From: Zoroaster sp. YZ-2022
Lineage: Eukaryota > Echinodermata > Asteroidea > Forcipulatida > Zoroasteridae
Direction of reading: 5' to 3'
Assembly: GCA_029582265.1 (NCBI GenBank)
Contig: CM055819.1
Span: 10,155,087-10,219,086, forward strand
Length of the DNA stretch: 64,000 nucleotides
Position numbers and translations under genes: made by a program. Positions 13,626 to 64,000 of the stretch are shown here, piece by piece. The first letter of the stretch is position 1. Each line of letters opens with the position of its first letter. Below the pieces are notes generated by a model. The model made no database searches. It was not told where the DNA came from and saw nothing but the letters and a program-made list of their open reading frames with translations.

Positions 13626-13818
13626 GTCTCATTAACGTGTGTTGTGCATAATAAAGTTACAACAAACGCATGTTTGTTTTTCATTACTCCAGTGGAATAC
13701 CATGACGTCATGCATAAACATGTCAGCCTAGCTCTATAGTCCATAAAGTTTACATGAATGAATCATGAATTTACGGAAGCGTTAAAGGGCCACAACCAAA
13801 AAAAAAATTTCAAGTTAC

Positions 13819-13883
13819 TATCTCGCCGCGGCGAGTTAGTATCTCGCCGCGGCGAGTTACTATCTCGCCGCGGCGAGTTAGTA
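13819..13883. repeat. Palindromic 21-bp tandem array, E1 left (3 units)
   Basis: Three units of TATCTCGCCGCGGCGAGTTA-like sequence. Each has a perfect 14-bp palindrome CTCGCCGCGGCGAG containing a SacII site. Candidate protein-binding array of the transposon. Confidence 0.8.
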
Positions 13884-14035
13884 GCGAGGTTTCGGTTGCA
13901 CACGGTTAGCGGAACAGCGACTTTTAGTAGCTGTGACGTCATCACTCTTTGCGCACTAATGACGTTTTACTCAATCTGTCAAAGTGTAAAAGTGTCGTCA
14001 ACATATGGAACGCCACAGCTGCCTTCGGTGCCCAT

Positions 14036-14356
14036 ATCGCTTCATTCGGCCGATTCACCATTTCATTCGGCCGATTCACCATTTCATTCGGCCGATTCAC
14101 CATTTCATTCTGCTATATCACCATTTCATTCGGCTACTCATCATTTCATTTGCCCAATCATCATTTCATTTGGCTAGTCTTCATTTCGTTCGCCTTTTCG
14201 TAATTTCATTCGGCTAGTCGTCATTTCATTCGGCCATTCACCATTTCATTTGCCCAATCATCATTTCATTCGGCTAGTCTTCATTTCGTTCGGCTTTTCA
14301 TCATTTCATTCGGCTAGTCATCATTTCATTCGGCTATTCACCATTTCATTTGCCAC
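14036..14356. repeat. Minisatellite of about 20-21 bp in E1 left arm
   Basis: About 15 units of CATTTCATTCGGCCGATTCA type. The first three are near identical and the rest diverge (CGGCTACTCAT, CGGCTAGTCTT, and others). Inverted counterpart at 15373-15745. Confidence 0.8.
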
Positions 14357-15372
14357 CAAGATCAAACTAGCCGCGGATTCAACCGCGGATTCAGCTGCAG
14401 GTTTTCTCACGGATTTAACCGGATCGGGTCAGTTTAAAAACTGGATAGATGTAAATTTAAAACCCACGATCAGGTTGGTCCAGTGCGTGTGAATACTGCA
14501 CTCAATACGGTACGTTTCCACACGGCCGGGCGCAGGCGAAATGAAATGATTGCGCCCAGCCTCTGTCGTTAAAAGCGTAATCTTATAACGCCAAAACCAC
14601 GATATGCCCTAAGGTGAAATGTCATCTCCATAATTCGTTAACAAAAATTTACAAAAATTAACAAAAATTAACATTATAGGGGGCACAAATTGTTTTAACT
14701 TTTGATGAGTTGGTCACAAATACTCTGCATTGTGTAACTATACACGGCATATACCGGCGATAATGGTACATATTCTAGCGTCACTTTAATTATGACCAAC
14801 TCGTCCAAAGTTAAAACAATTTGTGCCCCCTTTAATGTTAATTTTTGTTAATGAATTATGAAGTTGAAATTTCAACTTAGGGCATATCGTGGTTTTGGCT
14901 TGATACGATTAATATTTCATAATTAAAGGGACTCTAGAATATGTATCATCGCCGGTATATGCCGTGTATATATTACACAGTTAAACAAAGCTGAGTAATT
15001 GTGACCAACTCATCAAAAGTTAAAACAATTTGTGCCCCATTTAATGTTATTTTTTGTTAACTTTTGGAATTATGGAGATGACATTTCACCTTGGGGCATA
15101 TCGTGGTTTTGGCGTTATAAGATTACGCTTTTAACGACAGAGGCTGGGCGCAATCATCATTTCATTTCGCCTGCGCCCGGCCGTGTGGAAACGTACCGTA
15201 TTGAGTGCAGTATTCACACGCACTGGACCAACCTGATCGTGGGTTTTAAATTTACATCTATCCAGTTTTTAAACTGACCCGATCCGGTTAAATCCGTGAT
15301 AAAACCTGCAGCTGAATCCGCGGTTGAATCCGCGGCTGAATCCGCGGTTGAATCCGCGGCTAGTTTGATCTT

Positions 15373-15745
15373 GGTGGCAAATGAAATGGTGAATAGCCGA
15401 ATGAAATGAAGACTAGCCGAATGAAATGATGATTGGGCAAATGAAATGGTGAATGGCCGAATGAAATGACGACTAGCCGAATGAAATTACGAAAAGGTGA
15501 ACGAAATGAAGACTAGCCAAATGAAATGATGATTGGGCAAATGAAATGGTGAATGGCCGAATGAAATGACGACTAGCCGAATGAAATGACGAAAAGGCGA
15601 ACGAAATGAAGACTAGCCAAATGAAATGATGATTGGGCAAATGAAATGATGAGTAGCCGAATGAAATGGTGATATAGCAGAATGAAATGGTGAATCGGCC
15701 GAATGAAATGGTGAATCGGCCGAATGAAATGGTGAATCGGCCGAA
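15373..15745. repeat. Minisatellite of about 20-21 bp in E1 right arm
   Basis: Reverse-complement counterpart of 14036-14356 with more units, so the two arms have changed repeat number independently. Confidence 0.8.
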
Positions 15746-15908
15746 TGAAGCGATATGGGCACCGAAGGCAGCTGTGGCGTTCCATATGTTGACGACACTT
15801 TTACACTTTGACAGATTGAGTAAAACGTCATTAGTGCGCAAAGAGTGATGACGTCACAGCTACTAAAAGTCGCTGTTCCGCTAACCGTGTGCAACCGAAA
15901 CCTCGCTA

Positions 15909-16057
15909 CTAACTCGCCGCGGCGAGAGTAACTCGCCGCGGCGAGATAGTAACTCGCCGCGGCGAGATACTAACTCGCCGCGGCGAGATACTAACTCGCC
16001 GCGGCGGGATACTAACTCGCCGCGGCGAGATATTAACTCGCCGCGGCGAGATAGTAA
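15909..16057. repeat. Palindromic 21-bp tandem array, E1 right (7 units)
   Basis: Seven units of AACTCGCCGCGGCGAGATAG type, one with CGGCGGG in place of CGGCGAG. The left arm has only three. Confidence 0.8.
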
Positions 16058-16100
16058 CTTGAAATATTTTTTTTGGTTGTGGCCCTTTAACGCTTCCGTA

Positions 16101-16334
16101 AAATACTGTGCTGAAGTTTTAGTTACCGATATAAGTGACCACTTGCCTGTTTTGTTGGTGGTAGATAATATCAAGAAAAAGTTTCGGACTTAAACGTGAT
16201 TATTCTGATGAAAATATTGAACATTTCATTGATGATCTCAATGAGACAGATTGGAGTTTTATAACAAGTTATGATGTTAATGTAGCATATATACATAACA
16301 GCAAAAGAAACGTCACCCCCTAAATTGTGTTAAG
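16101..16334 (+). pseudogene. LINE fragment: end of APE endonuclease domain
   Basis: The first bases read in frame as KYCAEVLVTDISDHLPVLL. SDHLPV is the closing motif of the APE-type endonuclease of CR1/L2-like LINEs. Stops and frameshifts follow. The N-terminal half of the same domain lies in reverse at 26800-27845, beside E2. The fragment is cut by E1 on the left and E3 on the right. Confidence 0.65.
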
Positions 16335-16886
16335 TACGGAAGCGTTAAAGGGCCACAACCAAAACAATTTTTTCAAGTTACTATCTCGCCGCGGCGAGTT
16401 ACTATCTCGCCGCGGCGAGTTACTATCTCGCCGCGGCGAGTTAGTAGCAGAGGTTTCGGTTGCACACGGTTAGCGGAACAACGACTTTTAGTAGCTGTGA
16501 CGTCATCACTCTTTGCGCACTATTGACGTTTTACGCAATCTGTCAAAGTGTAAAAGTGTCGTCAACACGGATAACAGCTCCACTACACGTAAGTGAAAAA
16601 CGGATAGTAAAACTCAGCAATTTCCTAAAAATTTCGAGAGAAAAACATAAATAATCAACCATAGAGATAGTTCATAGTTAGCATAAAGACAGTTCTGGTA
16701 GCATGTATGTTTACTTCTGGTCTCGGACTAGCCGCTGTATCTGTGGCAGTATGGGCATGGCCTATAGGCTATATGAAAATGAAGAGGACCTCTTATGTTT
16801 CTTCACCACCAGAAAATTTAAAATTTGATTCCCCCATCCCATATTTAGTCAGTGCATTTAATAAGGTTTCATCTTTCATTTTCAGA

Positions 16887-17664
16887 ATGGCAAAGAAAAC
16901 CGTTAGATTTTACCCTGGCCTTCTGAGGGAAGTTTTGGCGATTTCAAAAAGGAATTTCAAAAATAGCATGGGAGGGAATCAACACTAACATGAATGATGC
17001 CATCAAGGCTAAGAACATTTATGTGACACTGAGGGCATGCAAAGATCGCTTTCGACACCTTCAGGATGCTCACCGAAGAAATGAAATGAGTTCTTTAAGG
17101 GCCAAGTAATTTTTTAACAGAAAAATTATATTTATACGCATACAAATCACCATATAAAATGTAGGAAAATTTCAAAGAGGATATGAAAAAGTGTGAGACG
17201 GATGAAAAAGAGATGCAGGGGTTAGCCATTAGAGCAGCAGCAATGGAATCCCTGGTTTCTGCCAAGAAGGCCCAAAATGGTGACAGAAAAGGTGCTTTTC
17301 TTAGGTCCCTTAGATTTGATTTGAAAGTCATCCACTGTTGCCAGTGTCGTTTTCTATTTGATCCCTGGTTTTTTAACCAAAACAAATTTAAAGAGAAGGG
17401 GATTTTCTCACCCAAACTTTTACCCTTTGAGTTTTAAGGTTTAATTTGAAAATCATTTCCTTGTAAGTGCTTTCATTTTGTTTATTGTTCTTTTTTAAAC
17501 TGATCATTATTTCAGACACAGAGCTGACCGCACCACAAAGGAAACGCCGAAGCACAGCAGACTTATATGTCAAGTACCTTGAAGACAAACTGGAATTTGA
17601 GCGTGAAAAGTTTTATTTGGAAAAAAAAGAAAGAGAAGCAAGGTTGGAAAAGACAATGAAATGA
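16887..17664 (+). pseudogene. Myb/SANT-like protein gene of the Harbinger element
   Basis: A start is chosen at 16887, just after a TTTTCAG acceptor (16879-16885). It gives MAKKTVRFYPGLLREVLAI, a trihelix/Myb-like opening. About 16930-17103 then reads, in a different frame, AWEGINTNMNDAIK and LRACKDRFRHLQ, so a frameshift lies near 16945-16975. Exon 17165-17291 gives FKEDMKKCETDEKEMQGLA, and exon 17516-17664 gives PQRKRRSTADLYVKYLEDKL, then a charged coiled coil ending at a stop. The junction of the last two is phase 1 with GT-AG; the donor after about 17103 is unresolved. In Harbinger elements this protein binds DNA and helps nuclear import of the nuclease. As assembled it is broken. Confidence 0.6.
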
Positions 17665-19941
17665 TGAAAATGATGATGACCCTAATAAAAAAGTAAGGTT
17701 AAACATATTTTAGGATTGCACTGCTATGAATACGGTTTGTGAAACTAACACATGTTGGTGATCATAGAATTCCATGATTTGATTCCTCTGGCAATATTTC
17801 CCCCGTTGATTTTGAAAACCGTGTTAACGTTTTCAAGTTTTGCAATTTTATTCCTGCATTTCATTGTTTTGTCAGGATTTCCAGCATCTATACATGGACA
17901 TGCATTTTAAATTTGTCATTTTGTGATATGTTTCAAGTCCAGAGTTCAATTAAGCTCAAAGTGTGGGTTAGAAGTGAAAATTTTAATATACATTGTAAAC
18001 ATTCCTAGATACTTAGAATGTTGAGCAATTTTGGCTCAACATAAACACAAGTGACTAAATGTAAAAACACATGTGGAGAGTGGATACTTGCTTCAAGTTG
18101 GACTGTTTTCACTGCTTTTGCCTCATGTAAAAAGAACACTCAGAGATAGCCAAAGGGCCCGTCATGAGTTTAAAAAGTCGATATTTGTTTCATAACACCT
18201 GAACCATTTTATAAAGATTCTGCATATTTTTAGAAGACCTGCTACAATATATCAAACCAAAACACAGGTTCCACAGGTAACATGACAACAATTCACATTG
18301 CCAGAATTTGATGTAGTATGGACGACTGGTAGTTTATTGGTTTCTAAGGAATACTAGTAGTACACAGTCTTTACAGGTTCACACGATGCAATAGTACAGA
18401 TGGTATACATCATATGACTATTTAGTCAGAATTTATGTATAAGGTATTATAAGGTTTTTTTCAGATTTACATTGTGTATGTACCACTTTAAAAATTTAAA
18501 AATTAAAATTAAAAAATTAATACTTTGTATCCCCTTCTTTGTCCTTGGTGTACAGGTTTGTGTTTTTACTACACTGTCTTGTTTTTATCATAAATTTCAT
18601 ATCATTTATATCATTTTTAAGTGCAATGACGTGTGCAGTCTTTTGTTACTTCTCGTCTTTTACATGTATAGTAGATCCCTTGTCCAGTTTCTTCCAGTTA
18701 AATTATTGTTTTAAAGTTTTAAAGTATTTCATTTGATTTTAATCATTTATTAATTTTATTTAACATTTTTAAAGACTAAAGGGTTAATAAACCCTGAGAC
18801 AACATTTTTATGTATTGATATTATGTGATAACATTTTCCTGTTAATATTTCTTTATTGGCTTTTGACCAAAAAAATGATCATTTAATGTTCAACGGGTGC
18901 CGCCATCTTGGGACTCTCTGACGTAGCAGGGTTCCATCAAGCCAGACTGTCGTCACAAAGCGAATTCAAAAAGATGCATGTTGCAGTGTGGCACATACTC
19001 GTGGCCTCAACAAATCTGAAGCGCATATTGGACTATTTGAGGCCGCGCGTATGTGCAAAACGTCGTTTAGAACTTGCACTGTGACGATGGTCTGGCTAAT
19101 GGTACTCTGTTACATAACCGGGTCCAAATATGGCGTCACCTGTGGAACACTAAAACACAATCATGTTTTTGGGGTTAAAAAAAAGCCAATAAAAAAATAC
19201 TGATATGAACATGTGTAACTGTCTTAGTCTTAGAAATCTCACATCCGTCGACACGTAAAAATGTGTCTTGTGGTTCACTATCCCTTTAATTTTATTTTCA
19301 GCAAAGGTTTTTATATTTTCAGGGTTTGTAATTTTTGCTTGAGTAATCAATCCCCGTTATGTAATTTGCATTTGTTGTTGCAGTGATTAAAATCAATGTT
19401 TATAAATATCTTACAAAGCTAGCTTCATTTTGTCAATATGAATTATAAGGTTGTTCCCTTCAAAGTGTGGGTGTAAGGAAGCATTGCCCAATTTCATGGA
19501 ATTCCTCATTGTAACAATCGTCTTTCCCTGCTCACCGAGCTACCAACATGAACAGGAAATCAGTGTTAAGTTCCCTTTTAACCAGGGGAACATTTTATTT
19601 TGTTTTTCTTACAGAACATGAAATTGGGCACAGGAAACAAATTTATATAGGCCTTCACAGTAAAGAAAAATAAAAATAAAAAATAAATAAATGTAAGAAA
19701 GTGCACAGCAACAGAAAACAAAGACTACTGTTAAACTTGCTGACTGATCAAGACCTGACAATTTTTATTCTAAACTATACTTTTGTTGTCTTTTTTTTAA
19801 TCTCGTGGATCATAAATATAACTTAGTTATTGAAAGCCTGACATTCCAAAAATCACTAAATTCTTACAGATACAATCCTTGACGTAGGATTCATAATTCA
19901 GGGGCTCATAACGCAGACTTACTATATCATGAATGATGGAA
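17665..19941. other. Interior of E3 with no recognised gene
   Basis: AT-rich sequence between the converging Myb-like and nuclease genes. I see no protein motif. A more GC-balanced island at about 18890-19140 has no recognisable coding content. Confidence 0.5.
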
Positions 19942-21043
19942 TCATGCTAAATAGTTCTCCAAGGAGGGTGCCGGGTCCAGCTGGAAGTAACTGCTTGTCT
20001 GATTTTCATAGATACAAGTATGGCAGTTAGTGAGGGGCCCGCCAACTAGGTAGTACTTTGCCACTGGGGATAACAGTACTTTCAGGTTCTTGCGAAAGTC
20101 AAGGAAGGCAAACATTTTTATCATCTTCCCGAATACCCACACTACACATTCTCGTACTGATGACATTCTTGAATTGAATTCTTGTTGCTCAGCCCTCAGG
20201 TTTGCCCCTTTGAATGGACCTAGTAGATAACGTCTCATTGGATAAGCAGGGTCCCCATAAAGCGCGTAGGGCAGGTCATTTCTATCAGTCAGATCTCTTG
20301 CCTCAAATTCTTGCAGCAGTCCACTCATGCGAAGGAGAGCACTATCATGTCTTCGACCTTCTACTGGGCCGTAAAGATGAGCAATCAACCCACAAGGTAT
20401 CACCACTGACTGGAATTTTAAGGCATGTATCCTTTTGTGTCCGTTATAACACACTCGCTGATGATGAGTTGGCCTACAAATTGGACGAACTGTCCCATCC
20501 ACGAATCCAAAGCAATTCTGCAAAGGCGCCCCTTTGTCATGAATAAAATCTGCATAAACTTGCAGTTGTGCAGGATCTAGCCATGGTTTATCAAGGGATC
20601 ATGAGAAAGCGATGATGATGCAAAATAATTATACAAAACTTCAACGGTCTCATTGATAACGAGTGAAAGGGTGGATTTCGGTCTCCCAAAAAACTCTTCC
20701 AAGTCCGATTGGCAATTTGGGTAAGCGATCCTCTTGAGGACCATGCAAATAGCATCAAAGCTACTGCAAGTGGACCCGTTCTAATTAAAGTTAGTTTCTG
20801 TGGAAGTCCAAGTAGGCCTAACTAAATGTCGTAGCCGGTAAATGTCATCCTTTAAAATCTGAACTTATCTAAGCACTGATTATCTGTTAGCGTTAAATAT
20901 ATCAAACCTGGGCCAGTCTGGATTGAATGTGATTCTCTTTGGTATCGGTGCATTGGTCAAGAGAAGGTATATAAAGTCATAGTCAAGTCATAGTCAAATT
21001 CGTTTTCAATCGCAAAATCGAGCATACTCATGGGCGCAGCCAT
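19942..21043 (-). pseudogene. PIF/Harbinger DDE nuclease (DDE_Tnp_4), degenerate but near full length
   Basis: From a minus-strand ATG at 21043 the protein opens MAAPMSMLDFAIENEFDYD. Then, across frame changes, come DDIYRLRHLVRPTW, IAYPNCQSDLEEFFGRPKS, WLDPAQLQVYADFIH, and the open stretch 20523-19942. Catalytic positions are visible: D in FGFVDGTVRPI, D in YGDPAYP, E in SSVRECVVWVFGKM. Order and spacing match Harbinger transposases, which cut and paste the element with the Myb-like partner. At least three interruptions (near 20590, 20790 and 20880-20970) break the frame, so it is a recent pseudogene unless they are assembly indels or small introns (a CAG acceptor lies near 20777). The start is about 100 bp inside the right E-type terminus. 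Confidence 0.8.
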
Positions 21044-21148
21044 TTTAAGTTTGCGCCCTCTATAGCCTATCGTAAATGTAACCGCGACGATCGACGAAAC
21101 GCCCAAACTACACGTATCAGTGAACGGTTACCCGTACTGTCATGACGG

Positions 21149-21261
21149 TTAGTAACTCGCCGCGGCGAGATAGTAACTCGCCGCGGCGAGATAGTATCTC
21201 GCCGCGGCGAGATAGTAACTTGAAATTTTTTTTTTGGTTGTGGCCCTTTAACGCTTCCGTA
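21149..21261. repeat. Right terminus of E3 with palindromic array
   Basis: Three 21-bp palindromic units, then GGTTGTGGCCCTTTAACGCT and the end at TA 21260-21261. Identical in layout to the right ends of E1 and E2. Confidence 0.8.
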
Positions 21262-21289: not shown

Positions 21290-21470
21290 AAAAAAAAAAA
21301 AAAAAAAGTCGCCGTCCAAAAATAAAAAGTCGCCGCGTAAAAAAAAAAGTCGCCGTCCAAAAACAAAAAGTCGCCGCGTAAAAAAAAAAGTCGCCGCGTA
21401 AAAAAAAAAGTCGCCGTCCAAAAACAAAAAGTCGCCGCGTAGAAAAAAAAAAGGCGCCGCGTAGGTGTCC
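21290..21470. repeat. A-rich tandem repeat with GTCGCCG core
   Basis: About nine units of roughly 20 bp alternate between AAAAAGTCGCCGTCCAAAAA and AAAAAGTCGCCGCGTAAAAA, starting 28 bp outside the right end of E3. Possibly subterminal repeats of another element. Confidence 0.75.
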
Positions 21471-24545: not shown

Positions 24546-26799
24546 TACGGAAGCGTTAAAGGGCCACAACCAAAAAATGTTTTTCAAGTTACTATCTCGC
24601 CGCGGCGAGTTACTATCTCGCCGCGGCGAGTTACTATTTCGCCGCGGCGAGTTACTATCTCGCCGCGGCGAGTTATGTAGCAGAGGTTTCGGTTGCACAC
24701 GGTTAGCGGAACAGCGACTTTTAGTAGCTGTGACGTCATCACTCTTTGCGCACTAATGACGTTTTACGCAATCTGTCAAAGTGTAATAGTGTCGTCAACA
24801 TATGGAACGCCACAGCTGCCTTCGGTGCCCATATCGCTTCATTTGGCCGATTCACCATTTCATTCGGCCGATTCACCATTTCATTTGGCCGATTCACCAT
24901 TTCATTCGGCCGATTCACCATTTCATTCTGCTATATCACCATTTCATTCGGCTACTCATCATTTCATTTGCCCAATCATCATTTCATTTGGCTAGTCTTC
25001 ATTTCGTTCGCCTTTTCGTCATTTCATTCGGCTAGTCGTCATTTCATTCGGCCATTCACCATTTCATTTGCCCAATCATCATTTCATTCGGCTAGTCTTC
25101 ATTTCGTTCGGCTTTTCATCATTTCATTCGGCTAGTCATCATTTCATTCGGCTATTCACCATTTCGTTTGCCACCAAGATCAAATTAGCCGCGGATTCAG
25201 CCGCGGATTCAACCGCGGATTCAACCGCGGATTCAGCTGCAGGTTTTATCACGGATTTAACCGGATCGGGTCAGTTTAAAAACTGGATAGATGTAAATTT
25301 AAAACCCACGATCAGGTTGGTCCAGTGCGTGTGAATACTGCACTCAATACGGTACGTTTCCACACGGCCGGGCGCAGGCGAAATGAAATGATGATTGCGC
25401 CCAGCCTCTGTCGTTAAAAGCGTAATCTTATAACGCCAAAACCACGATATGCCCCAAGGTGAAATGTCATCTCCATAATTCCAAAAGTTAACAAAAAATA
25501 ACATTAAATGGGGCACAAATTGTTTTAACTTTTGATGAGTTGGTCACAATTACTCAGCTTTGTTTAACTGTGTAATATATACACGGCATATACCGGCGAT
25601 AATGATACATATTCTAGAGTCCCTTTAATTATGAAATATTAATCGTATCAAGCCAAAACCACGATATGCCCTAAGTTGAAATGTCAACTTCATAATTCAT
25701 TAACAAAAATTAACATTAAAGGGGGCACAAATTGTTTTAACTTTTGACGAGTTGGTCATAATTAAAGTGACGCTAGAATATGTACCATTATCGCCGGTAT
25801 ATGCCGTGTATAGTTACACAATGCAGAGTATTTGTGACCAACTCATCAAAAGTTAAAACAATTTGTGCCCCCTATAATGTTAATTTTTGTTAATTTTTGT
25901 TAACGAATTATGGAGATGACATTTCACCTTAGGGCATATCGTGGTTTTGGCGTTATAAGATTACGCTTTTAACGACAGAGGGTGGGCGCAAACATTTCAT
26001 TTCGCCTGCGCCCGGCCGTGTGGAAACGTACCGTATTGAGTGCAGTATTCACACGCACTGGACCAACCTGATCGTGGGTTTTAAATTTACATCTATCCAG
26101 TTTTTACACTGACCCGATCCGGTTAAATCCGTGAGAAAACCTGCAGCTGAATCCGCGGTTGAATCCGCGGCTGAATCCGCGGTTGAATCCGCGGCTAGTT
26201 TGATCTTAGTGGCAAATGAAATGGTGAATAGCCGAATGAAATGATGACTAGCCGAATGAAATGATGAAAAGCCGAACGAAATGAAGACTAGCGAAATGAA
26301 ATGATGATTGGGCAAATGAAATGATGAGTAGCCGAATGAAATGGTGATATAGCAGAATGAAATGATGAATCGGCCGAATGAAATGGTGAATCGGCCGAAT
26401 GAAATGGTGAATCGGCCGAATGGAATGGTGAATCGGCCGAATGAAATGGTGAATCGGCCAAATGAAGCGATATGGGCACCGAAGGCAGCTGTGGCGTTCC
26501 ATATGTTGACGACACTTTAACACTTTGACAGATTGCGTAAAACGTCATTAGTGCGCAAAGAGTGATGACGTCACAGCTACTAAAAGTCGCTGTTCCGCTA
26601 ACCGTGTGCAACCGAAACCTCTGCTACTAACTCGCCGCGGCGAGATAGTAACTCGCCGCGGCGAGATAGTAACTCGCCGCGGCGAGATAGTAACTCGCCG
26701 CGGCGAAATAGTAACTCGCCGCGGCGAGATAGTAACTCGCCGCGGCGAGATAGTAACTTGAAAAACATTTTTTGGTTGTGGCCCTTTAACGCTTCCGTA
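24546..26799. mobile_element. E2: quasi-palindromic DNA transposon, inverted relative to E1
   Basis: Same ends and same internal order as E1, and the asymmetrical centre (25490-25900) is the reverse complement of the E1 centre (14650-15060), so E2 lies in opposite orientation. Arrays of the 21-bp palindromic unit flank it (4 units left at 24590-24674, 6 units right at 26626-26758). Flanks show only TA. Non-coding. Confidence 0.8.
26626..26758. repeat. Palindromic 21-bp tandem array, E2 right (6 units)
   Basis: Six units of CTCGCCGCGGCGAGATAGTA type, one with GGCGAAAT. Copy number differs from all other E ends in the window. Confidence 0.8.
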
Positions 26800-27845
26800 G
26801 TATTTAGAGTAATCATTGGTGAAAATATTGTCAATCAGAGTAGAACTAATATCTGTAATTCTCGTCGGCTTGTTAATTGTTGGGTAAAAAGAAATATTAT
26901 CAATCAGAGTAGAACTAATATCTGTAATTCTCGTCGGCTTGTTAATTGTTGGGTAAAAAGAAATATTATCAATCAGAGTAGAACTAATATCTGTAATTCT
27001 CGTCGGCTTGTTAATTGTTGGGTAAAAAGAAATATTGTCAATCAGAGTAGAACTAATATCTGTAATTCTCGTCGGCTTGTTAATTGTTGGGTAAAAAGAA
27101 TAGGAAGTAAGTAGGCCTACATCCAAAAAAAAATTCACAGTGCGGTCAGAATTATAATTAAATAAATTTACATTAAAATCGCCCATCATATAACACTTTT
27201 TGTTGTAATTATTTACCCGGGCTAATATTTCAGTGAAGTGGATAATGAAGTTAACATAAGAAGCATCAGGGGGTAAAATTCAAACAATAACACTGGTTGT
27301 ATGGATATTATCCAACTCAATAAAACATGCTTCAATATCAGAATTGTATACACATATGTCATTACGCACCTTGTAGGATAAATCCTGATTATTAAATATA
27401 AAATGCTTTTATCATGTCTGCAAAGTGCAAACACCTTCAATATTATAGTGAGGAAGCTGGATAAGAGGGTCATTTAAATCATTAAGCCATGTCTCTGAAA
27501 TACCAATAATAGAAAAATCAACCTTTAACAGATTAATAAAAATAGAAATATTACTAATTTTATTTAGGAAGACTACGTGCATTGATGTGAAGTAATTTAG
27601 CATTAGTATTAACATTAAAAGTATTCAAGAAAGTATTCTGGTCATAACAATCACAGCTAATATCTGGCAATTCATAATTTAAATCGGGGTCAATATTAGA
27701 ATCTGCAAAAGATGTGATGTCAATGAAAGAGCAAATGTATACTGAATGGTCGATCTCCTGAACAAAATTAATGACAATTGGACAAGGACAAGAACAATAC
27801 ATGAAATAGTAATTATACATACTAAATGAAATAAGACTCACAATA
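26800..27845 (-). pseudogene. LINE fragment: N-terminal part of APE endonuclease domain
   Basis: Read on the minus strand from about 27600 it shows LLHINARSLPK, then FSIIGISETWLNDLNDP, then MMGDFNVNLFNYNSDRTVNF and PTINKPTRITDISSTLIDNI, ending IFTNDYSKY at the E2 border. These are the N..RS, ETW, GDFN and LIDNI motifs of CR1/L2-clade endonucleases. Frame changes near 27560 and 27420 break it. The SDHLPV end of the domain is not here but at 16101. The LIDNI block is present four times in tandem. Confidence 0.75.
26821..27096 (-). repeat. In-frame 69-bp (23-residue) unit repeated four times in the LINE endonuclease
   Basis: Four near-identical 69-bp units, each coding SFYPTINKPTRITDI plus SSTLIDNI. 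A normal domain has one. The length keeps the frame. The same four-unit array recurs at 59425-59695. Confidence 0.85.
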
Positions 27846-58608: not shown

Positions 58609-59108
58609 NNNNNNNNNNNNNNNNNNNNNNNNNNNNNNNNNNNNNNNNNNNNNNNNNNNNNNNNNNNNNNNNNNNNNNNNNNNNNNNNNNNNNNNNNNNN
58701 NNNNNNNNNNNNNNNNNNNNNNNNNNNNNNNNNNNNNNNNNNNNNNNNNNNNNNNNNNNNNNNNNNNNNNNNNNNNNNNNNNNNNNNNNNNNNNNNNNNN
58801 NNNNNNNNNNNNNNNNNNNNNNNNNNNNNNNNNNNNNNNNNNNNNNNNNNNNNNNNNNNNNNNNNNNNNNNNNNNNNNNNNNNNNNNNNNNNNNNNNNNN
58901 NNNNNNNNNNNNNNNNNNNNNNNNNNNNNNNNNNNNNNNNNNNNNNNNNNNNNNNNNNNNNNNNNNNNNNNNNNNNNNNNNNNNNNNNNNNNNNNNNNNN
59001 NNNNNNNNNNNNNNNNNNNNNNNNNNNNNNNNNNNNNNNNNNNNNNNNNNNNNNNNNNNNNNNNNNNNNNNNNNNNNNNNNNNNNNNNNNNNNNNNNNNN
59101 NNNNNNNN
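58609..59108. other. Assembly gap (500 N)
   Basis: Exactly 500 unknown bases. The sequence resumes inside a truncated E element. Confidence 0.98.
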
Positions 59109-59404
59109 ATGGGCCGTGAAATGGTGTCGGCCAAATGAGCTAGGGCCCGAAGGCGGCTGTGGCGTTCCATTGTTGACGACCTTAACCTGACGGATTGCGA
59201 AAAACGTCGTCGCAAAGGTGAGGGCCCGCTCCCAAGTCGCTTTTCCCCAACCGTGCAACCAAACCCTGCCTCTCGCCGCGGCGATAGAAACTCGCCGCGC
59301 GAAAGTAACTGCCGCGGCGGTAAAAGGGGCTATAACTCGCCGCGGCGAGATGGTAACTCGCCGCGGCAGTTTAACAACATTTTGGTTTGTTTAACGCTTC
59401 CGTA
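59109..59404. mobile_element. E4: right end of an E element, truncated by the gap
   Basis: Contains GTGGCGTTCCAT and several degraded CTCGCCGCGGCGAG units, and ends AACGCTTCCGTA. Compared with E2 it misses many short strings, which looks like poor base quality or indel errors. Confidence 0.75.
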
Positions 59405-60440
59405 GTATTAGGTAATCATTGGTGAAAATATTGTCAATCAGGTGGGTAATATCTGTAATTCTCGTCAGCTTGTAATTGTTGGGTAAAAGAAATTTATCAA
59501 TAAAGGTAGAACTAATATCTGTAATTCTCGTCGGCTTGTTAATTGTTGGGTAAAAGAAATATTATCAATCAGGTAGAACTAATATCTGTAATTCTCGTCG
59601 GCTTTTAATTGTTTTTAAAAAATATTGTCAATCAGAGTAGAACTAATATCTGTAATTCTCTCGCTTGTTAATTGTTGGGTAAAAGAATAGAAGGGTAAGT
59701 GGCCTATCCAAAAAAAAATTCACAGTGCGGTCAAATTATAATTAAAAAAAATTTTACATTAAAATCGCCATCATATAACACTTTTTTGTAATTATTTACC
59801 CAGGGCTAATATTTCAGTGAAGTGGATAATGAGTTAACAAAGACATCAGGGGGTAAAATTCAAACAATAACACTGGTTGTATGGATTTTTCCAACTCAAT
59901 AAACATGCTTCAATATCAGAATTGTATACACATATTCATTACGCCCCTTTGTAGGATAAATCCTGATTATTAATATATAAATGCTTTATCATGTCTGCAA
60001 ATTGCAAACACCTGTAATATTATAGTGAGGAAGCTGGATAAGAGGGTCATTTAAATCATTAAGCCATGTCTCTGAAATACCAATAATGAAAAATCAACCT
60101 TTAACAGATTAATAAAATACAAAATATTACTAATTTTATTTAGAGAAGACTACGTGCATTGATGTGAAGTAATTTAGCATTAGTATTAACATTAAAGTGA
60201 TTCAAAGTATTCTGGTCATAACAATCACAGCTAATATCTGGCAATTCATAATTTAAATCAGGGGTCCAATCATTAGAGACCTGCAAAGATGTGATGTCTT
60301 AATGAAGAAGCAAATATTATTGTACTGGAATGGTCTGATCTCCTGAACAAAATTAATGACAATTGGACAAGGACAAGAACAATACATGAAATAGTAATTA
60401 TACATACTAAATGAAATAAGACTCACAATAATTATGCTAT
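59405..60440 (-). pseudogene. LINE endonuclease fragment, copy in block D2
   Basis: Colinear with 26800-27845, including four units of the 69-bp array (59425-59695), but with many 1-3-base indels that break every frame. Confidence 0.75.
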
Positions 60441-60845
60441 GAGGTGTAGTGACCGATCGCGATACCCCAGGCGATTAATAAAGTATGACATCAAATATTA
60501 CAATGTAAGCCCGATTGCGGCGACACCATGTCAAACCCTCCACTAGGGCGGTGATTAGCTCTGAAAAAACTGGAGGTTCTTTTCAAAAAAAATCACTTTA
60601 GCGCGAGTACTTAAAGTGGGCATGGTTAATAAGATTTGTAGAAAGAGATTAGGGCGCCGATATAGTAATGAAGTAGGTGTGACATCAAAAATTAATGACG
60701 TCACGCTAGATTTAGATGCTGGTAGTAGTAGGGTGGGGTGGTATATTAAAAATAATTTTTTAGTCGTTTTTTTTTTTAATGTTTAAAAATGAAATTGAAA
60801 CGAGAAAAAAAAAAAAAATTTATCTTGTTTAATAGTAAAGATAGT

Positions 60846-61232
60846 ATGGAATCAAGAAGAAAATATTTATCGAAATGGACATTGCCAGAATTTAAAATAT
60901 TTGCGCGAGAACACGGGCTAATTCTTGTACAAAACCAAAATGGTAAGGTAGATAAACGTTCATATTACAACGCGGTAAAAAATATTTGCGTCGCCGTAAA
61001 CCAAAGCCGCTGTATAAATTAAGTTTAGTCGAATTAAGAAGGCGTATAGAGTCTGAAATAATTGAGCTACCAGAACGCGGCGCGGGTAAGCGCAGTTGTT
61101 AAAAAGACTACATCGCCGCTATTAAAGGTTTCACGGACGAGAAGAGTTGAGATTTAAACCCCGATCGATGGCGGAAGATATTTACGCGAACGAAGAATAA
61201 TAGTTCCGCTGAATCATAGCAAAGAAAAAGAT
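60846..61232 (+). pseudogene. SAP-like small protein, copy in block D2
   Basis: The first 58 codons are the same as at 28289. The same frame slip near the A-run is present, and further short deletions damage the second SAP-like half. Confidence 0.5.
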
Positions 61233-61462
61233 TAATGTCAGAGGTTAATACACAAGAGGGCGCTATTTAATGCGATACTGTATTGGCTTCAGCTCAGACA
61301 AAAAACCACGATCACAGACTTGGATCCAAGTCAACGCCGGGGGGTACGTCCGTGCGACGTACGTGGTCAACGATGACGTCAGCGGCGTAGCCACGGGGGG
61401 CCTGGGGTGGGGGGCGTGCACAAATTCAGTGCCCCCCAGTGCCCCCCACGAAAAATCCTGGA

Positions 61463-61794
61463 GTGTCGTGGCCGAGCGGTCTAGCTTACCGGACTCAAGT
61501 TCTGGTGTTGGCAGAATGTGGTTCGAATCCCGGCTGTGACACTTGTGTCCTTGAGCAGAACACTTAACCATAATTGCTTCTCTCCACCCAGGGTTAAATG
61601 GGTACCTGTGAGGGGCAGAGTTGGTTGATTAGCCTATTATGCGCTGGCAGCAATTGAGCTGTATACTCCCCAGGGAGCTGATATGGTTTCAGGAATGATT
61701 TGTGAGCCTTATGAGCCTCATGAGCAGGAGTAATGATATAATGCGCCTTGAGCACCACTTAGTTGGTGGATACGTGCGCTATATATGTCCACAA
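61463..61794 (+). mobile_element. tRNA-Leu-derived SINE, copy 2 (block D2)
   Basis: Same head, body and tail as 28925-29266, with an intact B box (GGTTCGAATCCC) and small indels. Confidence 0.85.
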
Positions 61795-62063
<269 letters not shown>

Positions 62064-64000
62064 GCGTTAGCACAGCATGAAAAGAAAGATCTTGTTTCCT
62101 TTCTGCCGGTTACACCTCGAGTCAAGCTACGTCCCGTAGCCTTAGATCTCAGTGTCTTTCACAGAATCCTTGCTGTCCCTAGAGTGCCGCCTTCTGTAGT
62201 AATTCTACTAACAGATGTTCCTATCTCCTTGAGATGTTTCTCCAACACCTTCGGGATTGTACCCAGTGCTCCCACTACCACAGGAATAACCTTGACCTTG
62301 ACTTGCCGCCATAGCTTGCGGAGTTCTCTCGCTAAATCCTGATATTTCTGTACCTTCTCCTTCTCCTTCGAAGCTACTCTACTATCACCCGGCACAGCTA
62401 TATCAATAAGATGACACATCTTTGCATGCTTATCCAAGACAACAACACCCGGCCGTCTATGTTCTATAACATGATCTGTCTGGATGTTGAAGTCCCAGAG
62501 AATCTTGACATGATCCGTTTCTTCAACCTTTCGTACCACTTCGATTGCACCTTGACACCGTACTTCTTACACAGATCCCAATGGATCACCTTGGCCAACT
62601 TGTCGTGTCTGCCTTTGTACTCTGTCTGAGCATGCACTCTGCATTCGCTGACAATGTAAATACAGATCTCCTCCGCCGCATTGCACATTCTGCACATAGA
62701 AGAGACATCTGACTTCTCGATCCTTGCCTTCATCACATTCGTCGGCAGAGACTGGTCTTGCGCTGCAGTAATCAGACACTCAGTTTCTTTCTTTAGTTCT
62801 CCTCTCCTCAACCATTCCCAAGTCTTGCTACTTTCCACTTCTTCAGTACATCTCAGGAATCGGCCGTGAAGTGGTTTTTCCTGCCAATCTCGTGTTCTTT
62901 CTTCTCTTCTTTGATTCTTATACTCCTTTGGACCTAATTCGTCTGCCTTCATGTATTTCTGCGCAACCTTCAACAACTTTTCCCGAGTACTTCTTACATG
63001 ACACTGCAAGCTCCATCTCTCGATGTTAACGCTGTCTGATACACTAAGTTAACCCTCTTCCACCCTCTGACCTCGGTAGATAGAGTCTGCTGACATTCGA
63101 CCGTGGATGTAACATACCGTATATCGTCATCACTTTCCTCGTTTTCCTGTCAGCAACATCTAGATCTGCCTTAGTCCACTCGACAATTCCCGCACTGTAT
63201 CTCATTAGTGACACAGCCCAAGTGTTGATCGCCTTTATCATATTCCCTCCATTCAGCTTGGACTTCAAACACTTCGTCACTCGTCTTATATACTCTTTCT
63301 TAAGTCTCTCTTTCGATTCCTCGTGCAGTACATGATCTGCTTCAAGCACTCCAAGATACTTAGAACCTTCTTCTTCACCCAACGCCCTCAATTGTGTGCC
63401 ATCTGGTAAAGCAATTCCATCCGAATGTACCCTTTTACCCCTCTTCATGGTCATCACACATTTCTCCAGACCAAACTTCATGCCGATGTCATCGCTGAAG
63501 ATCCGTACAGTCTGCACCAAGGAATCAATCTCTTTCTCGTTCTTCGCAAACAACTTCCAGGTCGTCCATGAAGAGAAGATGATTAATCACTGCATCCATC
63601 CTTCGTCATCTCATATCCCGAACCTTCCGCAAAATCATCGTCAAAGGGAACAGCGCCAAAACAAACAACAGTGGAGACAGAGAATCGCCCTGGAAAATAC
63701 CTTTGTCTGATGTTTACCTTACCAAGACATTCATCACTGGCCATCAGATTTGTTCTCCATGTCTTCATGCTCTCACCCAGGAGACATTTCACCGCATCAA
63801 CTGCCCCTATCATATCCAAACATTCCATAATCCACGAGTGTGATACCATGTCGTATGCCTTCTTGTAATCTATCCATGCCATGGCCAGATTAGTTTTTCC
63901 TGTTCCTACAGTCCTTTAGCACCGTCTTATCAATGATGAGTTGGTCTTTCGTTCCTCTTGACCGCTTCTTGCATCCTTTTCTGCTCATCTGGAAATAACT
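62064..64000 (-). pseudogene. R2/R4-type LINE, copy 2 (cut by window end)
   Basis: Colinear with 29516-31480. The endonuclease region reads through further than in copy 1, to VQKYQDLARELRKLW, but the motif residue D of RRPD is G here (RRPG, near 62453). The CCHC region reads CRMCNAAEEICIYIVSEC, so the H is lost. The RT is split by indels near 63555 and 63620; LFMDDL is interrupted there. The frame change after RSEGGRGLT is shared with copy 1. Confidence 0.8.

Follow-up and report, generated by a model that had tools for sequence, protein, structure and literature searches.

The 64,000-nucleotide stretch of contig CM055819.1 from the sea star Zoroaster sp. YZ-2022 analyzed here (the window) contains a transposable element, E3, whose ends are of the IS3EU type and whose cargo is a broken pair of Harbinger genes (Table 1). 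E3 is very likely a non-autonomous composite that probably originated when a Harbinger element entered the palindrome array of an IS3EU-type element and that was then spread as a unit by an integrase-type transposase acting in trans; under this interpretation, the arrays would be sites at which the ends are bound, and two foldback elements in the window (E1 and E4) would derive from the left end of the composite.

Ends and Target Site Duplications

The initial annotation of the window described E3 as a Harbinger-type element with identical inverted termini, three 21-bp units containing the palindrome CTCGCCGCGGCGAG inside each end, and converging Myb-like and DDE nuclease genes between them. 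All of these structures are present: the 20-bp terminus is exact at 16335–16354 (+) and 21242–21261 (-), the arms are alike across 112–115 bp (~94–95% identity), and the genes are a Harbinger-type pair, both of them broken. The terminus occurs six times in the window, against 0.00 expected from shuffles. In the genome (1,001,958,528 bases in 616 contigs) it occurs 586 times (305 + 281), compared with 1 + 0 for a reversed control; a viral contig (L001) contains a single 18-mer match that is not accompanied by an array and is taken as chance.

Forty loci (L032–L071) were fetched from the first listed places. Of these, 34 (L032–L065) yield 33 facing pairs of ends, 31 having distinct flanks, and an exact 6-bp target site duplication (TSD) is present in 23 of the 31, as against 0 of 930 mismatched pairings. 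No TWA duplication, as had been anticipated for a Harbinger element, is found in any of the 31 pairs when the boundary is placed at each of ten positions between 4 bp outside and 5 bp inside TACGG, nor is one present at E3 itself, where the flanks are GTTAAG and GTTTTT. TA (PHISTA-like) and ANT (Pangu-like) duplications were considered because E3, viewed in isolation, has AGT/AGT at one boundary; they are unneeded given the 6-bp TSDs.

The literature, cited here and below from partial texts, describes IS3EU ends as always TA..TA with a TSD that is usually 6 bp (PMC10045372), and rust-fungus IS3EU elements as having 6-bp TSDs and ends TAYGG..CCRTA (PMC12730594). The ends of the present family, TACGG..CCGTA, fit this signature and, together with the 6-bp TSD, are therefore assigned to the IS3EU type. 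Their earlier assignment to Harbinger is contradicted by the TSDs, by the lack of TWA, and by the occurrence of the same ends and arrays on integrase-coding copies.

The smallest members, mini-elements of 115–198 bp, extend barely beyond ends and array; exact TSDs are present in L053, L058, L064, and L065, not in L057. Two pairs of neighboring loci (L053/L054 and L059/L060) have flanks that are identical within the pair and arrays that differ in unit number, reflecting either local duplications or a change in array length.

Composite and Integrase-Coding Copies

Cargo was compared at 16 sampled loci with end pairs 4.3–7.4 kb apart (L032–L047). Two of them (L032 and L043) share the ends and arrays of the family, have exact TSDs, and contain frames matching the integrase core domain PF24764 (2.8e-15 and 1.2e-16); they are 91–96% identical to each other in long matching blocks, and have in common with E3 only the terminal 74–115 bp, array included. 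The outer 74–112 bp of the E3 left terminal repeat is ~91–96% identical to their ends. Harbinger genes were not found in either (tblastn at 1e-4), and the integrase domain is absent from E3 in a six-frame Pfam scan.

The search for further copies with these ends around nuclease and Myb-like genes was successful at the other 14 loci, which are E3-like: they have blocks of at least 150 bp at 91–98% identity to E3, pieces of the Harbinger DDE and Myb-like genes, and the same layout. An exact 6-bp TSD is present in 10 of the 14 (the exceptions being L037, L042, with 7 bp, L044, and L045), and L072 is a further E3-like copy with one end missing. The right inner junction is common to all 15 two-ended composites (E3 included), small changes aside, and the left inner junction to 14 of them. 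These common junctions, together with the 6-bp TSDs, indicate that the composite moved as a unit, presumably multiplied in trans by the integrase-type transposase of the family.

It is extremely improbable that 16335 and 21261 are the ends of two separate insertions. E3 has no clean TSD, and its terminal 50-mers differ at four places, whereas its right 50-mer is the same as that of the E1 left end; against this, the layout recurs in 14 more copies, 10 of them with perfect TSDs, and the right flank weakly continues, as FPLE, the long interspersed nuclear element (LINE) on the left of E3 (64 of 1959 random stretches give an equal score, and the motif is correctly placed in 207 of 39307).

Table 1. 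Positions of E3, its parts, and related features in the window
Feature	Position	Strand	Basis
E3 composite element, IS3EU-type ends enclosing broken Harbinger gene pair	16335..21261	+	Termini, 14 sampled genomic copies
E3 left terminal inverted repeat with array	16335..16446	+	
Left array, three CTCGCCGCGGCGAG spaced 21 bp	16385..16440	+	
AGAGGTTTCG at inner edge of left array, also in L073 terminal repeat; possible old Harbinger end	16449..16458	+	
Subterminal stretch common to E3 and foldbacks	16447..16567	+	
Broken Myb-like gene	16889..17693	+	tblastn with P0121/P0122, reading frames
Broken Harbinger-type transposase gene (DDE_Tnp_4), with D, D, and E retained	19942..21043	-	Profile match, tblastn, frameshift-aware alignment
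E3 right terminal inverted repeat with array	21150..21261	-	
Right array, three CTCGCCGCGGCGAG spaced 21 bp	21156..21211	-	
E1 foldback relative, arms from E3-type left end	13772..16100	.	
LINE piece right of E1, begins AAATAC (KY)	16101..16334	+	
E4 foldback relative	24546..26799	.	
LINE piece right of E4, ends AAATAC (KY)	26800..27703	-	

The Harbinger Gene Pair and Its Origin

The transposase gene of E3 matches DDE_Tnp_4 at 19942–20523 (-; E=6.4e-22). It starts near 21043, and its frame is interrupted by stops and by seven frameshifts relative to the reference protein P0002 (frameshift-aware alignment). The Myb-like gene is represented by three pieces (16889–17103, with a start placed by eye and a frameshift; 17186–17302; and 17509–17693) that match the starfish proteins P0121 and P0122. 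Three open frames from this region have no Pfam match, and P0121 itself reaches Myb_DNA-bind_4 at an E of only 0.059, below the cut-off. The first exon is frameshifted in E3 and the full second exon is not seen; longer copies probably possess the second-exon stretch. A nested inverted-repeat stretch resembling a miniature inverted-repeat transposable element lies between the two genes (18802–19264).

Frames were analyzed in 11 of the 15 composites (L040, L041, and L047 were omitted as interrupted, and L039 was not included). Ten of the 11, among them E3, cover P0002 positions 82 and 134 of the DDE gene, and all ten are frameshifted at both; coverage is lacking in L042. Because these lesions are common to all ten, the DDE gene was probably already inactive when the composite spread, having been frameshifted in the common ancestor of the examined copies, and the composite would have been mobilized in trans.

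Harbinger relatives also exist outside these ends. Matches to the DDE protein number at least 151 in the genome (494 candidates, 150 scored), several being open frames without stops, and five such places outside the sampled composites were inspected. One (L073) has convergent Myb-like and DDE genes and a 39-nt inverted repeat at 845–883/4876–4914 (92%); it has neither the IS3EU terminus nor the palindromes, and no target duplication is clear by eye. Three others (L074–L076; DDE ~54–60% identical) contain no IS3EU terminus and no palindrome, and terminal repeats were not recognized in L074 and L076, the two inspected for them. Nuclease copies elsewhere in the genome with different termini, which would count against the initial annotation, are thus found in part: L073 differs in its terminal repeats and lacks a palindrome array.

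A possible trace of the original insertion is the sequence AGAGGTTTCG, part of a local match between the left side of E3 and the L073 terminal repeat that 27 of 2936 random 68-mers equal in score; the right side of E3 has no significant match to this repeat (243 of 2936 random stretches score as high). A search inside E3 for nested Harbinger ends, with or without 3-bp TSDs, gave nothing clearly above chance: the best pair (10/10) was reached by 1 of 30 shuffles, and by TSD type the best pair was reached in 17 (TWA), 86 (CWG), 24 (TNA), and 169 (ANT) of 200 shuffles. The sequence evidence supports, without proving, an origin in which a Harbinger element carrying both genes probably landed within the array of a short IS3EU-type element.

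Several points weigh against a composite of this origin. Both integrase frames (L032 and L043) are interrupted, and an intact copy is not among the sampled loci, which are the first listed places and not a random selection. Eight of the 31 distinct pairs lack an exact 6-bp TSD (7 bp in one, and a shorter duplication or none in the other seven), E3 itself matches at just 3/6 positions, and L033 is without the common left inner junction. The IS3EU label is based on published signatures and PF24764, not on IS3EU reference sequences, and the frameshifts depend on P0002 as the reference. The two Harbinger ends within E3 are not both recognizable. Lastly, Myb exon 1 is open in its whole length or minus one residue in 9 of the 15 composites, which leaves room for a role of the Myb-like protein.

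Two observations would suit a true Harbinger lineage in which the ends have become TACGG and the staggered cuts 6 bp, and whose proteins move E1, E3, and E4 and bind the arrays: the two convergent genes start near the ends, as in an autonomous Harbinger, and no second pair of Harbinger ends was found inside E3 above chance. We nevertheless regard such a lineage as highly unlikely, given that PHIS groups have 0-, 2-, or 3-bp TSDs (PMC4482050; PMC12730594), that the same ends surround integrase genes, that the DDE frameshifts are common to all covering copies, and that the relative L073 has other ends.

Palindrome Arrays

With up to two mismatches allowed, the palindrome occurs 28 times in the window, against 0.03 expected. 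E3 has three units per end, the first exactly 50 bp from the terminus. This distance is kept at all six ends of three elements in the window (26 units), where 19 of 20 spacings are 21 bp, 104 of 104 CpGs are kept, and linkers are more variable than palindromes (12/182 vs 3/364; copies not independent). An array of 1–11 units, counted only with three or fewer mismatches, is present at 78 of 78 sampled ends (L032–L071); the distance to the first palindrome is 50 bp for 48 ends and 49 bp for 19 (range 41–58), 185 of 190 spacings are 21 bp, the exact 12-bp core is found in 232 of 268 units, and 1047 of 1072 CpGs are kept. Each end consists of a terminus followed, at about 50 bp, by a row of phased palindromes. 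No array was found in prokaryote contigs, and searches of PDB sequences gave no match.

The arrays are probably binding sites, as the initial annotation proposed, and their phasing of 21 bp (two helical turns) suggests dimers bound on one face of the DNA. Long ends with repeated transposase-binding sites have a precedent in Galileo (PMC3688188), and the Myb-like protein of Harbinger3_DR binds a 9-bp subterminal motif (PMC9710019). In the present family, arrays occur both in the integrase-coding copies and in the mini-elements, and so track the ends rather than the Myb-like gene. Given the arrays at ends for which no Myb-like gene was detected, the integrase-type transposase is a likelier binder than the Myb-like protein, and it would most likely be the dimeric protein that occupies the row of sites. 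It is very doubtful that the Myb-like protein of the swallowed Harbinger, still partly open in several copies, now aids the IS3EU-type machinery, or that the arrays recruit both, with two unrelated transposon systems acting on the same ends.

The variable number of units, and the satellites seeded by Tetris-type foldbacks (PMC4079207), would suit arrays without a role in binding, formed simply as satellite-like by-products of the ends. This is rather unlikely in view of their presence at every sampled end, their regular spacing, the retention of CpGs, and the greater variability of the window linkers.

Foldback Relatives and a Split LINE

E1 and E4 fit the definition of foldback elements, having long, internally repetitive inverted arms and little else. 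The TU elements of sea urchins are likewise foldback elements. E1 contains the first 233 bp of E3 at 96% identity, and the inner 192 bp of this stretch is present in E4 at 97–98%; it includes a short motif at 16498–16505 (TGACGTCA) that we take to be CRE-like. Nine sampled loci have the interior of E1. Because E1 and E4 carry a stretch of E3 that includes the inner edge of its left array, they most likely derive from the left end of the composite. The description of E3 as the coding relative of E1, E2, and E4 therefore stands for E1 and E4, which have the same ends; E2 is not identifiable.

The right flanks of E1 and E4 are halves of one LINE in opposite orientation, each with AAATAC at the element; this is the sole exact duplication of 2–10 bp among the 15 pairs of the six window flanks. 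The six closest relatives of the LINE (P0123–P0128) all have the length of the halves joined without the duplication. Among 119 aligned matches, 23 have that length and 66, 19, and 11 are longer by one, two, and three residues, respectively, the distant relatives being non-decisive. The split LINE provides independent support for a 6-bp TSD.

The rearrangement that separated the halves may be examined by criteria that distinguish aberrant transposition from recombination (PMC8225341; PMC2775673). In the terminal 50 bp, arms within one foldback differ at 0–1 places and between foldbacks at 3–4; in the 126 bp past the array, the arms of E1 are identical and those of E4 differ at four places, the same as E1 versus the right arm of E4. 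This fits, though not strongly, the use of the ends of two elements in aberrant transposition rather than recombination between elements; homogenization of arms within an element, or misassembly, may be alternatives. The inversion between the LINE halves is ~8.4 kb and may reflect aberrant transposition, recombination, or a misjoin.

Within the LINE piece at E4, a 69-bp tandem repeat (four copies; 26823–27100) leaves the endonuclease frame open. A few bases to the right of E3 is an A/T-rich 20/41-bp satellite containing GTCGCCG (21298–21463). The end of the window (58609–64000), past an N gap (58609–59108), is a noisy copy of the 26–31 kb region, including the right end of E4, which suggests a haplotype left uncollapsed or sequence that was poorly polished.

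Relationship to Known Transposons

IS3EU and GingerRoot resemble this family in their TA..TA ends, 6-bp TSD, and integrase-type transposase (found here in L032 and L043, not in E3), and passenger genes are known there (TET/JBP, alpha-kinase) (PMC12730594; PMC10045372). The present family is distinguished by its palindrome arrays, its foldback forms, and the Harbinger gene pair that it carries; none of these was found for IS3EU in the partly covered literature searched. With PIF/Harbinger (PHIS) elements it shares a DDE_Tnp_4 transposase and a convergent, putatively Myb-like partner, but it has a 6-bp TSD in place of TWA and ends in common with integrase elements.

Galileo, a foldback-like member of the P superfamily, also has long ends that are repetitive internally and hold several sites for transposase binding (PMC3688188), and TSDs exchanged at rearrangements (PMC2775673); it differs in its transposase, its 7-bp TSD (PMC2775673), and the kind of tandem repeats. 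Foldback elements, including Tetris, have comparable long, repetitive inverted arms, but most seem to be Mutator elements, and the TSDs of Tetris are 8–10 bp (PMC4079207, which also cites a sea urchin foldback), compared with 6 bp here.

No description of a comparable IS3EU/Harbinger composite was found in the literature searched, of which coverage was partial. With IS3EU-type ends around Harbinger genes, a name based solely on the encoded transposase would be wrong for the family. Its members range naturally from a 115-bp mini-element bearing a single palindrome to ends bearing 11, a series that is suited to testing the number of phased sites against transposition, and in E3 and its copies one cut-and-paste superfamily very likely carries and amplifies the gene pair of another.

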